Virus record (IMG/VR): IMGVR_UViG_3300044633_001437
Location: 1-24,401 of that record
Length of the DNA: 24,401 nucleotides
Source: a virus
Strand: one strand, 5' to 3'
The notes under the pieces were generated by a model, which ran no database searches, had not been told where the DNA came from, and saw only the letters and a list, made by a program, of their open reading frames with translations. The position numbers and the translations under genes are program-made. This document shows positions 3,522 through 11,047 of the stretch, in pieces (the stretch's first letter is position 1; the number at the start of each line of letters is the position of its first letter).

Positions 3522-6500
3522 ATGGCAACAGCACAAGCAAACCAAAAAGTATTCGTATCTCCGGGTGTATATACATCTGAAACGGACTTATCTTTCGTAG
3601 CCCAAAGTGTAGGGGTAACTACATTAGGTCTTGTTGGAGAAACAATTAAAGGACCGGCATTTGAACCGGTATTCATAACTAATTATGATGAGTTCCAAGC
3701 GTTTTTCGGTGGAGCGGAACCAACCAAATTCATCAACACTCAAATACCTAAATATGAGGCGGCATATATTGCTAAATCTTATTTACAACAATCAAATCAA
3801 TTATTTGTAACAAGAGTTCTTGGTTTATCAGGATATGATGCGGGACCTTCTTGGTCACTTAATGTTACTGCAAATGTTGACCCTACAACTATTGGAAACC
3901 CTTCAACAGGAACCTCTTTCACCTCAACATTCACAGGTAATTCAACATTAGGGGTTGTTGAATTTATTTCAGGATCATTACCTACACAAGTTACTGCAAA
4001 CTTAAATGTACAATATAGACAACAAGATGGAAGTACATCAACATTACAAGATGATTTCAACTCATATCTAACTTCAATAATGCTTTTACCTTCAACTTCA
4101 GCAACCACTGCAGTAATTTATGGGGCAATACCTGAATCAGTTTATTTTAATATTACAGGTCAGTATTCCACAGTTGAGAATCAATATGAGTGTATTAACG
4201 ACTTCGCAGATAATGATTTATCAGATGATTCGAACGATGTATGGTATTATGCTAATTTTGAATTTGAAGATAACGATTCTTTAACCGGTAATTATACGGG
4301 TTACTCGTTCTATTATGTTGTTTCTACTTTGGCTTCAGGGGCCACAAACACATTTACAGGAACAGTTACCGGTAATTCTTACACATTTACAGGTACCGCT
4401 TATGAAGAGTTTAATAATATGGTTGTAGGTACTATTCGTTCGAGAGGTATATCACTTTACACTAATAGTAGTACTAGTGAAAATCACGGACCTGTTTACC
4501 AAGTAAATGGTCTCACAGATTTACAATTAGTTTGTTCCGGACAATATTCAGGAATAACTAAATCCCCATTTGCAACTTTTTTGTTATCGGGAGTTACTAA
4601 TGATAATGATGTTTTCACTTTTGAAACTTCTTTACTTTCATCTTCCTCAAAATATATAACTAAAGTATTAGGTGTTGATAATTTTGGTAAATCAAGATTT
4701 GAAGTTCCAATTTATGTTGAGGAGGCATATCAAGGATCTTTAAATTACGCATATAATCAAGGGTATATTAGAGGTCTCTCTTGTGATTTGATTGCGTTAC
4801 CGGGAGCAAGAAGTCAGAACACATCATCAATTGCATATAATTTGGAGAGATATCAATCACCTGAAACCCCTTATTTAGTTTCAGAGTTGAGAGGTAATAA
4901 GGTATATAATTTGTTTAAATTTATATCAATCTCTGATGGGGATGATGCAAACTTTGAAGTTAAAGTATCAATTGCAAATCTCTCTTTTAATAGTATGTCT
5001 TTTGATGTATTAGTAAGAAACTTCTTTGACACTGATGCAAATCCCGTTGTAATTGAGAAATTTACAAATTGTAATATGGACCCAGCATCAAATAACTTTA
5101 TTGCAAAAAAAATAGGTTCGTCAAATGGTGAATTCGCTCTCATATCTAAATATGTAATGGTTGAGATGTCAGATGAAGCTCCTATAGACGCGTTACCTTG
5201 TGGGTTTTATGGGTACACCCAAAGAGAATATCAAGATTATAACATTTATCCATCACCTTATCCTAAATTTAAAACAAAATATTATTTTCCAGGTGAGGTA
5301 ATCGCTAATCCACCATTCGGTTCGGCCGCTAATGGAGCCCCCGTGGAATCTGGAGGAGATGTTGTTAGAAGAAGTTACTTAGGATTTTCATCTCAGTTTG
5401 GAATTGATGAGTCGTTTTTAACTTATAAAGGTAAACAAACACCTTCAAATTGGATACAATCACCTAGTGAAGTCGACGCTCAACGTTGGAATGTCCTAAG
5501 TAAAGGTTTCCATATGGATTCAGGTGCAACTGTTGTTACAATTGCAAACACTTCTATGTCAAGCGGAGACACGGCGTTTGAGTGTGGTGTTGCGGAATTT
5601 AGAGAAGACCCTGGAACACAAGAAAATCCTTATTACTTCATTTTCTCAAGAAAATATACTGTATGTTTTGCGGGAGGTTTTGACGGATGGGACATATATA
5701 GAGAATATAGAACAAATGAAGATAGATTCCAATTAGGTGCGTCAGGTTTCTTAGCAGGAGCTTACCCTAGTACAAGATACCCTACCGCAACAGGTGACGG
5801 ATTATTCAAACGAATTGTTGTTCAGAACAATACTCAAGATTTTGCAAATACTGATTATTACGCTTATTTACTTGGTATTTTAACATTTGCAAATCCGGAG
5901 TCAACAAATATTAATATTTTTGCAACAACGGCGATTGATTATGTTAATAACTCAAATCTTGTAGAAGAAGCAATAGACATGGTTCAATTCTCAAGAGCGG
6001 ATTCAATATATATTGCAACGACACCTGATTATAAGATGTATACACCGGATTCAACAAATCCTCAAGACATCATCTATCCTCAAGAAGCGGTCGACAACTT
6101 AGATAATACAGGAATTGATTCTAACTACACAGCAACTTACTATCCTTGGATATTAGTTCGTGATACGGTTAATAACACTCAAATTTATTTACCACCAACA
6201 GGTGAAGTTTGTAGAAACTTAGCATTGACTGATAATATTTCATTCCCTTGGTTTGCATCAGCGGGTTACACAAGAGGTCTTGTGAATTCAATCAAAGCTA
6301 GACAAAAACTTACACAGACAGATAGAGACACATTGTATCAAGGTAGAATTAACCCTATAGCAACTTACTCTGACATTGGAACCGTAATTTGGGGTAACAA
6401 AACTTTACAAGTCGCAGATTCGGCACTTAATAGATTGAATGTAAGAAGATTATTACTCCAAGCTCGTAAGTTGATTTCAGCAGTAGCTGTAAGATTATTA

Positions 6501-6740
6501 TTCGAACAAAACGACCAAATCGTTAGACAACAATTCTTAGATAGTGTTAACCCTATTTTAGATTCAATCAGAAGAGATAGAGGTCTTTACGATTTCCGTG
6601 TAACAGTATCTTCAACACCTGAAGATTTAGACTCTAACAGATTAGTTGGTAAAATTTACATAAAACCTACGAGATCTCTTGAGTTCATCGATATTGAGTT
6701 TTTCATCACACCAACAGGAGCATCGTTTGAAAATATCTAA
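3522..6740 (+). CDS. gp18: Contractile tail sheath protein (T4 gp18-like), enlarged
   Basis: 1072 aa. The N-terminus has the sheath signature VSPGVYTSETDLS, then VGLVGE-like and KGPAFEPVFITNYDEFQAFFGG, as in gp18-type sheaths, where the strand exchanges with neighbouring subunits. The C-terminus (from about 950) has LNVRRLLLQARKLISAVAVRLLFEQND, the FRVTVSSTPEDLDSNRLVGKIYIKP block and the terminal IDIEFFIT strand, which form the conserved inner domain contacting the tube. T4 gp18 is 659 aa, so about 400 residues are additional. Residues about 120-370 are Ser/Thr/Asn-rich and probably fold into surface beta domains exposed outside the sheath, with two TFTGT repeats near 280-300. It follows its own promoter-like box and is followed by a short hairpin. 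Sheath subunits surround the tube and contract to drive it into the host. Confidence 0.96.
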   Translation: MATAQANQKVFVSPGVYTSETDLSFVAQSVGVTTLGLVGETIKGPAFEPVFITNYDEFQAFFGGAEPTKFINTQIPKYEAAYIAKSYLQQSNQLFVTRVLGLSGYDAGPSWSLNVTANVDPTTIGNPSTGTSFTSTFTGNSTLGVVEFISGSLPTQVTANLNVQYRQQDGSTSTLQDDFNSYLTSIMLLPSTSATTAVIYGAIPESVYFNITGQYSTVENQYECINDFADNDLSDDSNDVWYYANFEFEDNDSLTGNYTGYSFYYVVSTLASGATNTFTGTVTGNSYTFTGTAYEEFNNMVVGTIRSRGISLYTNSSTSENHGPVYQVNGLTDLQLVCSGQYSGITKSPFATFLLSGVTNDNDVFTFETSLLSSSSKYITKVLGVDNFGKSRFEVPIYVEEAYQGSLNYAYNQGYIRGLSCDLIALPGARSQNTSSIAYNLERYQSPETPYLVSELRGNKVYNLFKFISISDGDDANFEVKVSIANLSFNSMSFDVLVRNFFDTDANPVVIEKFTNCNMDPASNNFIAKKIGSSNGEFALISKYVMVEMSDEAPIDALPCGFYGYTQREYQDYNIYPSPYPKFKTKYYFPGEVIANPPFGSAANGAPVESGGDVVRRSYLGFSSQFGIDESFLTYKGKQTPSNWIQSPSEVDAQRWNVLSKGFHMDSGATVVTIANTSMSSGDTAFECGVAEFREDPGTQENPYYFIFSRKYTVCFAGGFDGWDIYREYRTNEDRFQLGASGFLAGAYPSTRYPTATGDGLFKRIVVQNNTQDFANTDYYAYLLGILTFANPESTNINIFATTAIDYVNNSNLVEEAIDMVQFSRADSIYIATTPDYKMYTPDSTNPQDIIYPQEAVDNLDNTGIDSNYTATYYPWILVRDTVNNTQIYLPPTGEVCRNLALTDNISFPWFASAGYTRGLVNSIKARQKLTQTDRDTLYQGRINPIATYSDIGTVIWGNKTLQVADSALNRLNVRRLLLQARKLISAVAVRLLFEQNDQIVRQQFLDSVNPILDSIRRDRGLYDFRVTVSSTPEDLDSNRLVGKIYIKPTRSLEFIDIEFFITPTGASFENI

Positions 6741-7718: not shown

Positions 7719-8207
7719 ATGGCTGATTTATTAATGAAAATGCCCATACCTTATGAACCAAAAAGACAGAACCGGTTTATTTTAAGGTTTCCATCCAGTT
7801 TAGGGATAAATGAATGGTTTGTTGAAAGTACATCAAGACCAACTATAAAGATTGGTTCAACTGAAATCCAATTTTTAAATACATCGACATTTGTTGCTGG
7901 TAGATTTAATTGGGACCCAATTACGGTTAAATTCCGTGACCCAATCGGTCCTTCGGCCGCTCAAGCACTTATGGAGTGGGTTCGTTTACATGCTGAATCA
8001 GTTACCGGTCGTATGGGTTATGCTGCAGGTTATAAAAAAGATATCGACCTTGAAATGTTAGACCCAACAGGAGTTGTGGTTGAAAAATGGATTCTTTATG
8101 GAACATTTTTAACTGATGTTAATTTTGGGTCTTTAAGTTATAGTCAAGACGCATTGGCGGATATTACCGCACAACTTCGTATGGATAGATGTGTATTGGT
8201 TTACTAG
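7719..8207 (+). CDS. gp19: Tail tube protein (T4 gp19-like)
   Basis: 162 aa, almost exactly the T4 gp19 length (163 aa). It shows the family pattern: basic PKRQNRFILRFPSSLGI near the N-terminus, WFVESTSRPTIKIGSTEIQFLNTSTFVAGRF, W-DPITVKFRDPIGPSAAQALMEWVRLH in the middle, and a C-terminal strand set LEMLDPTGVVVEKWILYGTFLTDVNFGSLSY. The same fold occurs in tubes of contractile injection systems such as T6SS Hcp-like rings. The protein stacks as hexameric rings inside the sheath to form the DNA conduit. It has its own promoter-like box and is followed by a strong hairpin terminator, a layout that suits high-level expression as a near single-gene message. Confidence 0.96.
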   Translation: MADLLMKMPIPYEPKRQNRFILRFPSSLGINEWFVESTSRPTIKIGSTEIQFLNTSTFVAGRFNWDPITVKFRDPIGPSAAQALMEWVRLHAESVTGRMGYAAGYKKDIDLEMLDPTGVVVEKWILYGTFLTDVNFGSLSYSQDALADITAQLRMDRCVLVY

Positions 8208-8248
8208 ATTTACATTTAATATTTACAATTATTTTTATTTAACTTATA

Positions 8249-8287
8249 ATTAACCGTAAAGCAATAAACTTTACGGTTAATTTTTTT
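8249..8287 (+). terminator. Rho-independent terminator after tail tube
   Basis: A perfect 13-bp stem (ATTAACCGTAAAG at 8249-8261 with its complement at 8269-8281) closes a 7-base loop CAATAAA and runs into seven T residues (8281-8287). The T-run ends only four bases before the ATG at 8292. No promoter box lies between, so the chaperone gene probably depends on read-through, which would lower its level relative to the tube. Confidence 0.9.
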
Positions 8288-8291
8288 ATAT

Positions 8292-9035
8292 ATGGAAACA
8301 CAATCAAGAGACTACGGTCAAGAAAATTTTACATTACCACACGATGTGGTTCAATTACCATCACAAGGACTTTTTTATAAAAATAAAAAGAAATCTTTAA
8401 AAGTCGGTTATCTTACCGCATCAGACGAAAATATTATAATGGCAGGGACAAACGACTTGACAACAAGTTTATTACGAGCCAAGATATATGAACCTGATGT
8501 TAAGATTGAAGACCTACTTGAAGGGGATATTGAAGCGATATTAATTTTTTTACGAAATACGGGATTTGGACCAGAAATGACACTAAATCTTGTTGACCCG
8601 GCAACTAAAAAATCTTTTCAGTCTCAAATTATTTTAGACCAATTAAATATAATTAACGGACAAATACCTAACGAAGACGGAACATTTACTATCCAATTAC
8701 CAAAAACCCAATCAACTGTTAAATTAAAACCACTTAATTACGGAGAGATTATGGACATTAGTAAATTGGCTGAAACATACCCTCAAGGTAGAGTTGTTCC
8801 AAAAATCACTTGGAGATTACAAAAAGAAATAGTTGAAATAGATGGTTCTAATGACAAGTCAGTTATTGGTAAATTTATTGAATCAATGCCAATTTCAGAT
8901 TCTAAATTTATTAGAAAATTTATGAACGAAAACGAACCTAGACTAGATATGAATAAAGTAATAATGGCCCCGTCCGGAGAAAAGCTGACAGTGAATGTTG
9001 GGTTTGGGGTCGAGTTTTTTCGCCCTTTCTTCTGA
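8292..9035 (+). CDS. Tail assembly chaperone / T4 gp26-type baseplate protein, zero-frame product
   Basis: 247 aa. It opens with LPHDVVQLPSQGLFYKNKKKSLKVGYLTASDENIIM and LLEGDIEAILIFLRNTGFGPEM, the pattern I associate with T4-type gp26/chaperone proteins encoded between tube and tape measure. The C-terminal part has FIESMPISDSKFIRKFMNENEPRLDM and APSGEKLTVNVGFGVEFFRPFF, then TGA. Relatives normally continue after 'FFRP' with a charged helical region containing an MP-hydrophobic-R pattern; that region exists here in another frame (9022-9174). The zero-frame protein is therefore probably the short chaperone form (analogous to lambda gpG), which coats or escorts the tape measure. No Shine-Dalgarno; the start lies four bases after a terminator T-run. 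The exact name is less sure than the locus role. Confidence 0.8.
   Translation: METQSRDYGQENFTLPHDVVQLPSQGLFYKNKKKSLKVGYLTASDENIIMAGTNDLTTSLLRAKIYEPDVKIEDLLEGDIEAILIFLRNTGFGPEMTLNLVDPATKKSFQSQIILDQLNIINGQIPNEDGTFTIQLPKTQSTVKLKPLNYGEIMDISKLAETYPQGRVVPKITWRLQKEIVEIDGSNDKSVIGKFIESMPISDSKFIRKFMNENEPRLDMNKVIMAPSGEKLTVNVGFGVEFFRPFF
9015..9035 (+). other. Probable +1 (or -2) ribosomal frameshift site
   Basis: Zero-frame codons are TTT TTT CGC CCT TTC TTC TGA. The downstream coding region is in the +1 frame. At TTT|C a Phe tRNA can slide from TTT to TTC, its better match, while CGC, a codon rare in AT-rich genes, waits in the A site. A -2 slip on the six T residues gives the same frame. A third option is a shift at the TGA itself. 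A one-base sequencing or assembly error in the T-run cannot be excluded. Confidence 0.6.
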
Positions 9036-9174
9036 TTATAGGAAAAACCAAATAGACGAATTCTATTATTTGAATAAATTTATGAATATCAGTTATGGTG
9101 ATTTTGAAAAAATGCCATTATTCGTGAGAAAATATTTATTAGATAAATGGATTGAAGATAACAAGAAGGACTAA
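9022..9174 (+). CDS. C-terminal extension of tail assembly chaperone, +1 frame
   Basis: About 50 codons in the +1 frame relative to the upstream gene, ending at TAA 9172-9174. The reading gives SSDYRKNQIDEFYYLNKF, then ISYGDFEKMPLFVRKYLLDKW and an acidic/lysine tail. It is coherent and helix-rich. Its MP-L-VRKYLL pattern matches the C-terminal region found fused in frame in other T4-like relatives, as I recall them. Joined by frameshift, the product would be about 293 aa, analogous to lambda gpGT. The only in-frame ATG (9082) would leave out the first 20 or so conserved-looking residues, so separate initiation is less likely. In lambda-like systems the extension recruits tail-tube subunits to the tape measure. 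Confidence 0.7.
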   Translation, partial: ALSSDYRKNQIDEFYYLNKFMNISYGDFEKMPLFVRKYLLDKWIEDNKKD

Positions 9175-9191
9175 AAATTTTAGTCCTTCTT
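9163..9191 (+). terminator. Perfect hairpin overlapping the chaperone extension stop codon
   Basis: AAGAAGGACTAAAA (9163-9176) and its exact complement (9178-9191) flank one base, giving up to 14 base pairs less the few needed for a loop. It contains the TAA stop of the extension. It is followed by CTATTTATA, not a clean T-run, though the right arm starts with TTTT and ends TTCTT. It is probably a terminator placed just before the tape-measure promoter box, or an mRNA 3'-end stabiliser. Confidence 0.7.
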
Positions 9192-9217: not shown

Positions 9218-11047
9218 ATGGCAGACAACGAAGGTAGTGCTAAAGAACTTAAAGAAAGTTTTGAAAGGTTAGGTCAACCTATTGATGAAATATTAAACGC
9301 TATTGGTAACATGTATCAAGAAGCGAATAGACTTAATGAGTCCTTTGTACAAGGAAGAACTCGTATGGATGAAATGAATGACGCGGTGTCAAGAGCCGCG
9401 GCGGGGGTCATTCGTTTGGGTGGTGACATTTCTGATGTTAATACAACAATGGCAGGTATTGCAGAAGGTGCTAGAAGGAATGTAATTGCTACAGAAGACC
9501 AAGTTAGTAAGTTATATGCTGCATCTACAATTCTCGAAACTACCTCAAGTTCCTTAGTTGAAAAATTCGCTGAAGTTGGGTATGAGACATCTCAAATCGG
9601 AGTTAACTTAGAGGATTCTATCCAGTATGTTCAAAGTGTTGGACTAAATGCTAAGACGGTAATGACCGATGTCACTCAAAACATGTCTATAATGAATAAA
9701 TTCAATTTCAGTGATGGTGTACGGGGATTGACCAAAATGGCGGCACAAGCGTCAATGTTGAGGTTTGATATGTCAGCAACCGCTACTTTCGCAGAAAAAG
9801 TTATGAAACCCGAAGAGGCTATTAATACCGCGGCAGCCCTACAACGATTAGGTGTTGCGGTTGGTCAATTAGGAGACCCTTTTGCAATGATGAATGATTC
9901 ACTTACTAATCCTGGGGCTCTACAAGATAGTATAATTAAAGCAACACAACAATTTGTTGAACTTGATGCTGCGGGAAATTTTACAATAAATCGTCAAGGA
10001 TTATTGACTTTAAGAGAAATGGCTACTGAGACCGGAATCTCTTATGACCAATTAACAAAAAGTGCTTTAGCGGCCGCTTCTTTAAATGAAAGGTTATCGG
10101 CTATTAGTCCATCATTACAGTTTGATAAACCAGAAGACAGACAGTTGTTGGCTAATATGGCAACAAAGAAAGATGGTGAGTATGTTGTTCAAATTAAAGA
10201 TGATAAGGGTGCGATTGAATACAAAAAACTTGGTGATATTACCGCAGACGAATTCAAAGAGTTGAGGAAAAAACAAGAAGAAGCTCCAAAAACTTTAGAA
10301 GAAATCCAAATCAGTCAATTAGATGTGTTGATAAATATTCAAAAGGCGATAGAATCAAATGTTGCAAAGGGAACTTATGGAATTGCGGGGGCTTCAATCA
10401 TTAGAGGAAATCTTACAGGTGCGGAAAGAATTGTAAGTTCGGTTGCGAAATCGGTTGACAAAAATGTACCTGAAAGTTCTAAGATAACTGAAAGTATTAA
10501 TGATGTCGTTAAAAAAATGGGAGTACTTTTTACCACAAAGGATATGGGTAAAATAAGTAATAAAGATTTTGCGATAAAACTTACCTCTCTTGAAAATGAA
10601 ATTAAAAATAAAGCAAATACTCTTGGTGATAAAGGGTTTGATGCTTTAAAAAATATTTTACGAGATAGCGATAAACAAATTACCGGTAAAAGTGGTATTG
10701 AATTAGCGTTTAAAAAATATGCTTCAGAAATTTTGGGAGCAACAAACTCAGAGCTCAAAAAATCAAGTAGTGCTTCTAAAATTACAGGAACAAAAAAAAT
10801 TGAACCAATAAGTAAATCAAGTATATTTGGAACTAAAAGTTTTGATGGTACTTCGGAAAAAACTAGTAGTAGTGTTCAGACGGTTAATTCGAAAGTTGAT
10901 TTTGGAGGAGTTATAACAATTAAAGTTGACGCACCTCCGGGTGTTAGTCAACAACAATTAAAAACTTATATGGAATCTGAAGAATATAAAAGATTAATCT
11001 ACGAATATATATCTCAAAAATCAAAACAGCTTGAAAGAACAAAGTAA
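9218..11047 (+). CDS. Tape measure protein (T4 gp29-like)
   Basis: 609 aa, close to T4 gp29 (590 aa). Residues 1-330 are dominated by long helices with heptad-like and Ala/Ser/Met-rich character (for example DEILNAIGNMYQEANRLNESF and the AAALQRLGVAVGQLG segment). The centre is Lys/Glu-rich (KKQEEAPKTLEEIQISQLDVLINIQKAIESN). The C-terminal 100 residues turn Ser/Lys-rich and end in a compact beta-helix piece (GVITIKVDAPPGVSQQQLKTYM) and a basic tail. Tape measures fill the tube lumen and set tail length; the length here predicts a tail similar to T4's. Position directly after the chaperone pair and before baseplate genes agrees. No peptidase or transglycosylase motif is seen in it. A generic tape-measure call is safer than a strict gp29 call. 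Confidence 0.85.
   Translation: MADNEGSAKELKESFERLGQPIDEILNAIGNMYQEANRLNESFVQGRTRMDEMNDAVSRAAAGVIRLGGDISDVNTTMAGIAEGARRNVIATEDQVSKLYAASTILETTSSSLVEKFAEVGYETSQIGVNLEDSIQYVQSVGLNAKTVMTDVTQNMSIMNKFNFSDGVRGLTKMAAQASMLRFDMSATATFAEKVMKPEEAINTAAALQRLGVAVGQLGDPFAMMNDSLTNPGALQDSIIKATQQFVELDAAGNFTINRQGLLTLREMATETGISYDQLTKSALAAASLNERLSAISPSLQFDKPEDRQLLANMATKKDGEYVVQIKDDKGAIEYKKLGDITADEFKELRKKQEEAPKTLEEIQISQLDVLINIQKAIESNVAKGTYGIAGASIIRGNLTGAERIVSSVAKSVDKNVPESSKITESINDVVKKMGVLFTTKDMGKISNKDFAIKLTSLENEIKNKANTLGDKGFDALKNILRDSDKQITGKSGIELAFKKYASEILGATNSELKKSSSASKITGTKKIEPISKSSIFGTKSFDGTSEKTSSSVQTVNSKVDFGGVITIKVDAPPGVSQQQLKTYMESEEYKRLIYEYISQKSKQLERTK

Follow-up and report, generated by a model that had tools for sequence, protein, structure and literature searches.

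Xu, Hendrix and Duda reportedly described in 2004 the lambda gpG/gpGT pair and related frameshifted tail assembly chaperones. In systems of this type, the chaperone gene lies between the tail tube and tape measure genes, the reading frame is shifted near its 3' end, and a short form is accompanied by a rarer, C-terminally extended one; the shift is mostly -1 and, in Mu, -2. Assembly requires both forms, and virions lack them. T4 has been presented as the exception among phages that frameshift the tail chaperone (Atkins et al., 2016, PMC5009743), and the authors of PRFect noted that some T4-like phages do not frameshift but encode the short and the long chaperone in separate genes (PMC10885494). 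For the archaeal myovirus HSTV-2, a chaperone shift that is very likely +1 has been proposed (PMC5009743, PMC8211752). T-rich sites near the end of the short chaperone occur in SPP1 17.5/17.5* (UUUUUUC) and in the Vandenendeviridae (GTTTTT), where they are read as -1 (PMC6316719, PMC12846349), and the latter study further notes poly-T signals in the chaperone genes of T4-like phages (PMC12846349).

The stretch of DNA analyzed here (the window) is a 24,401-base IMG/VR virus contig with a T4-type contractile tail module. Judged by sequence comparison, its virus, like about 180 distinct relatives, very probably makes a longer chaperone by a one-base ribosome skip at a UUU codon. The locus resembles the lambda type in the position of the gene, in a break near its 3' end and in a predicted short form with a rarer extended one, but the predicted shift is +1, at UUU_Y, in a T4-type chaperone. 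With SPP1 and the Vandenendeviridae it shares a T-rich site near the end of the short product, whereas its own -1 frame is closed; with HSTV-2, which has an archaeal host, it shares the reported +1 direction.

The tail module comprises a tail sheath gene (3522-6740), a gp19-like tail tube gene (7719-8207; PHROG 4542, E 9e-26), the chaperone gene (8292-9035) and a gene for a 609-aa protein (9218-11047); the last three, and all the elements of the chaperone locus described below, are on the plus strand. The profile search with the 609-aa product gave no family match; we consider it the probable tape measure protein from its position and from synteny, since in Immutovirus and LIS04 the gene next after the chaperone carries the tail tape measure annotation. 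The chaperone gene thus sits between a tube gene identified by PHROG and a tape measure gene identified by position and synteny only. The sheath gene encodes 1072 aa, far longer than T4 gp18, and its recognized sheath domains are confined to the last third.

The zero-frame product of 8292-9035, the short chaperone TAC-N (247 aa), matched PHROG 150, the T4 gp26/gp51 family, with an E-value of 2e-9, as did all 61 of the 61 aligned relatives; its match to PF12322 (E 3e-4) was below the gathering cut-off. TAC-N and the extension were folded apart, with four annotated-phage rows left out of the structure-prediction alignment. The TAC-N model was confident (pLDDT 85) and had fold matches among viral proteins to T4-like baseplate hub assembly proteins, and its best PDB match, the HK97 tail assembly chaperone 2ob9, was weak (Foldseek probability 0.54, E 1.0; VIA Z 5.0, rmsd 5.7 over 92 residues). 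The AlphaFold model of the extension (pLDDT 85) contained three helices, in agreement with the helix-rich character originally predicted, and superimposed on two chaperone models with an rmsd of 0.9, but with E-values above 4. With the extension joined to TAC-N, the PHROG 150 match ended at position 253 of 282 instead of 233, and its score rose modestly, from 38 to 44 bits. Direct hhalign comparison of the family profiles with T4 gp26 or gp51 alone was not significant, so the link to T4 rests on PHROG 150 and the fold matches, and we hold the sequence-based relation of the window chaperone to gp26/gp51 with moderate confidence. Within PHROG 150, gp51 covers positions 13-280 and gp26 only 14-235, that is, gp51 has a C-terminal part absent from gp26; on this ground, genes 26 and 51 of T4 appear to supply the short and the long form, respectively. 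The two genes are separate and divergently oriented, whereas the window has a single gene of the same family with a frame break.

The zero frame ends in GVEFFRPFF followed by TGA at 9033-9035, and the +1 frame is open across the slip site and closes at TAA 9172-9174; the coordinates of the original prediction were exact on both points. The putative slip site, UUU UUU C(GC) at 9015-9021, is invariant in the window clade and consists of the run TTTTTT (9015-9020) with CGC (9021-9023) directly after it. If a Phe codon slips by +1 (UUU to UUU or UUC), the predicted junction is E-F-F-A-L-S-S-D-Y-R, in which the extension at 9022-9174 adds 50 aa and a stop after the shared E-F-F, for a predicted product, TAC-NC, of 293 aa in all. 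In the window clade the -1 frame shuts within 7-13 codons; the extension is not in the -1 frame, where a slippery heptamer (X_XXY_YYZ) would place it. Because 46 open codons past a stop are not rare by themselves in such AT-rich sequence, openness is weak evidence, and conservation was tested.

Five query proteins were used to collect close and distant relatives from viral contigs, and annotated phages were added; the set covers uncultivated phages as well as Immutovirus of Flavobacterium, SP-15 of Bacillus and LIS04 of Listeria. A search of genome contigs contributed one locus (L344). Among the 183 distinct loci, the extension was found in the +1 frame in 180, as a separate gene in two and in an apparent -1 frame in one (Xanthomonas phage XacN1), and a one-frame fusion of TAC-N and extension was found in none. 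One of the 180 (L297) was set aside for an upstream nonsense codon, which left 179 distinct loci with the same break, among them 55 of 55 distinct window-clade sequences. In the window clade, the extension had a dN/dS of 0.072 in the +1 frame, compared with 1.98 and 0.84 in the other two, and it could be aligned down to about 20% identity, with the consensus GLTxxYR...MPIWLR. Both conserved parts of the chaperone locus are under purifying selection. In this comparison, then, both predicted products are conserved, the position of the break is shared, UUU_Y is retained and selection acts on the extension in the +1 frame. The recurrence of the break and the selection on the extension support two earlier proposals, that the extension is the natural C-terminus of the family and that a T4-type tail assembly chaperone is expressed by programmed frameshifting; the latter now has strong comparative support.

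At the junction, UUU_Y was present in all 179 loci, as UUU_UUU (95), UUU_CUU (71), UUC_UUU (9) or UUU_CUA (4). The original prediction had pointed to TTTTTTC before a rare codon. The UUU_Y part of that site proved to be the conserved element, and neither the T6 run nor CGC did: CGC is scarce in the genes of the window (2 of 251 Arg codons), and CGT replaces it in half of the relatives, which indicates that the rarity of CGC is not itself the key. The A-site codons at the junction include CGY, TGG and CTY, among others. Only two TTT/TTC changes were mapped on the tree at slip codon 1, whereas two other conserved Phe columns had 14 and 18. In the L167 clade slip codon 1 is UUC, yet codon 2 provides UUU_U. 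No single slip codon suits every site, as codon 1 fails for UUC_UUU_UGG and codon 2 fails for UUU_CUA and UUU_UUU_AGU, and in the window either of the two UUU codons could be the slipping one.

Alternatively, a Mu-like -2 slip on the T6 run could make the same two products, with one extra Phe at the junction (VEFFFALSSDYR); in the window clade and in SP-15 and LIS04, UUUUUU does permit perfect re-pairing after a shift of -2. However, such re-pairing is confined to the UUUUUU group; the same break occurs at UUU_CUU and UUU_CUA (75 loci) and at UUC_UUU (9 loci), where -2 re-pairing is not possible. The slide had originally been left as +1 or -2, and +1 is favored on these grounds; we regard -2 as unlikely. 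Slippage of RNA polymerase on the T6 run, yielding a mixed mRNA pool, would likewise draw on the homopolymer at the junction, but in almost half of the relatives the T run is interrupted or shorter (TTTCTTT, TTTCTATGG, TTCTTTT) and the break is the same. Transcriptional slippage was rejected for this reason and appears highly improbable. An indel from sequencing or assembly, or decay of the gene, has a negligible probability: nothing was found in favor of this reading, and it is refuted by the relatives, in which the same break recurs at 179 distinct loci from many samples with both parts under purifying selection. The gene of the window is moreover common to nine contigs (96-100% protein identity), and every distinct variant retains the arrangement, which excludes a sequencing indel.

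Expression of the extension as a separate small protein from an internal start, for example ATG 8995, is a further rival reading. An ATG is found at -38 in 53 of 55 window-clade loci, TAC-N codons 229-236 (8976-8999) show little synonymous change in this clade and include a GGAG upstream of this +1-frame ATG, and in two relatives the domain does have a gene of its own. However, the stretch from ATG 8995 to the slip site is constrained in the zero frame but not in the +1 frame, where nonsynonymous change is greater than synonymous (nd/N 0.167 versus sd/S 0.034), and the +1-frame residues upstream of FF vary freely. In addition, 22 loci, including L208 of the window clade and seven of the L167 type, have no ATG, GTG or TTG in the +1 open reading frame before the extension, so internal initiation cannot be the mechanism shared by the family; we consider it very unlikely here, somewhat less so than polymerase slippage. 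The low synonymous change at codons 229-236 is accounted for in part by the candidate stem-loop described below.

A +1 slip at UUU therefore remains the preferred reading, and its upstream context was examined for a stimulator. The candidate is GGGG at 9006-9009, which ends 5 nt before the T-run and includes the GGG codon at 9006-9008. GGG occupies codon -3 in 55 of 55 window-clade loci, compared with about 6% of other Gly codons, and in 78 of 108 loci of Immutovirus-like clades, compared with about 11% elsewhere; at this fixed position it looks like part of the frameshift signal. By analogy, GGG(G) resembles the Shine-Dalgarno-like stimulator of prfB (RF2), which likewise combines a P-site codon able to re-pair +1 with a G-rich element just upstream. 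The spacing is 5 or 8 nt in the window and 3 nt in prfB; unlike prfB, the window has no stop codon in the A site and no RF2 feedback. In the window clade, GGGG may instead pair with CCCC to close a candidate 5' stem-loop at 8968-9009 (CCCC 8968-8971 with GGGG 9006-9009; CTGACA 8985-8990 with TGTTGG 8996-9001). This stem-loop had a z of -2.4 in the window, with 99.8% of cells paired but mostly invariant and a single double change, so that covariation is weak; it was not seen in the L084 and L176 clades. Downstream of the slip site, no pseudoknot or hairpin was found (z -0.9 to +0.1), and a 3' structure was rejected as the stimulator. With no downstream RNA structure, the nature of the stimulator is uncertain.

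We infer the slippage itself, its +1 direction, the role of the SD-like GGGG, the ratio of the two forms and their part in assembly as follows. Most ribosomes would stop at 9035 and release TAC-N, whereas at a UUU codon of GAG-UUU-UUU-CGC a minority would shift by +1. The tRNA-Phe would re-pair one base downstream, with UUU or UUC, during the wait for a slow zero-frame codon, and pairing of the upstream GGGG with the 16S anti-Shine-Dalgarno would aid the slip. Slipped ribosomes would continue to 9174 and make TAC-NC with its three-helix C-terminal domain. The analogy with lambda gpG/gpGT suggests a division of labor in which TAC-N would cover the tape measure protein and TAC-NC, made in smaller amounts, would bring in the tube subunits. 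That the UUU +1 slip yields TAC-NC besides TAC-N from one two-form locus is, in our judgment, highly probable on the comparative data. UUU_Y has been described as a sequence at which bacterial ribosomes are particularly liable to shift +1 (PMC5009743). The PA-X site of influenza A, UCC_UUU_CGU, also shifts +1 at UUU_CGU/UUU_CGC in a sense context (PMC5009743); virus, gene and ribosome are unrelated, and the likeness is one of site only.

Frameshifted tail chaperones, mostly -1, and the +1 proposal for HSTV-2 were already known; new, as far as the literature searched shows, are the +1 direction, the UUU_Y site preceded by GGG, and the occurrence of this arrangement in many T4-type phages. T4-type phages of lakes and seas and of Flavobacterium, Bacillus and Listeria very probably frameshift their chaperone by +1, which fills the gap left by the "except T4" clause in the rule of chaperone frameshifting in long-tailed phages. 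Sites of +1 shifting at sense codons are difficult to recognize and escape annotation: in the public records examined, the extension is either missing, as in LIS04, where it has no annotation, or a clipped hypothetical gene. The genes annotated for hypothetical proteins immuto35A_232 (L084, 4836-4946) and SP15_046 (L085, 4740-4859) lie in the frame of the extension and end at its stop; judged by these features, they are clipped annotations of the predicted frameshift product.

In the two split-gene relatives, the C-terminal domain is a separate open reading frame with its own ATG directly after the TAC-N stop (L176, 2214-2531; L182, 2217-2504), and the slip codon is TTC, with UUU_Y lost altogether. 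We tentatively suggest that a compact prokaryotic +1 module (SD-like GGGG, a 4-5 nt spacer and UUU_Y, with neither stop codon nor 3' structure), kept across many T4-type phages, could be the ancestral route to two forms, replaced by gene splitting in L176 and L182, by a -1 shift in XacN1 and by genes 26 and 51 in T4. The natural series of frameshift, split gene and two genes makes the need for a fixed ratio of forms testable.

In XacN1 (L086, about 4700-5000), the extension apparently lies in the -1 frame after GCT TTT TTT ATT, and ORF316, annotated at 4816, may represent part of it. No matches came from a scan with the XacN1 protein, so the -1 reading of XacN1 remains a single case. At the end of the window's chaperone gene, a strong hairpin was observed at 9163-9191 (13 pairs, z -4.3), whose 5' arm holds the last codons and the stop of the extension; it is kept in most of the sampled window-clade loci and lost in L069 and L079. 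A similar hairpin lies at 8248-8282, upstream of the chaperone gene, and both look terminator-like, with the next start codon close behind.
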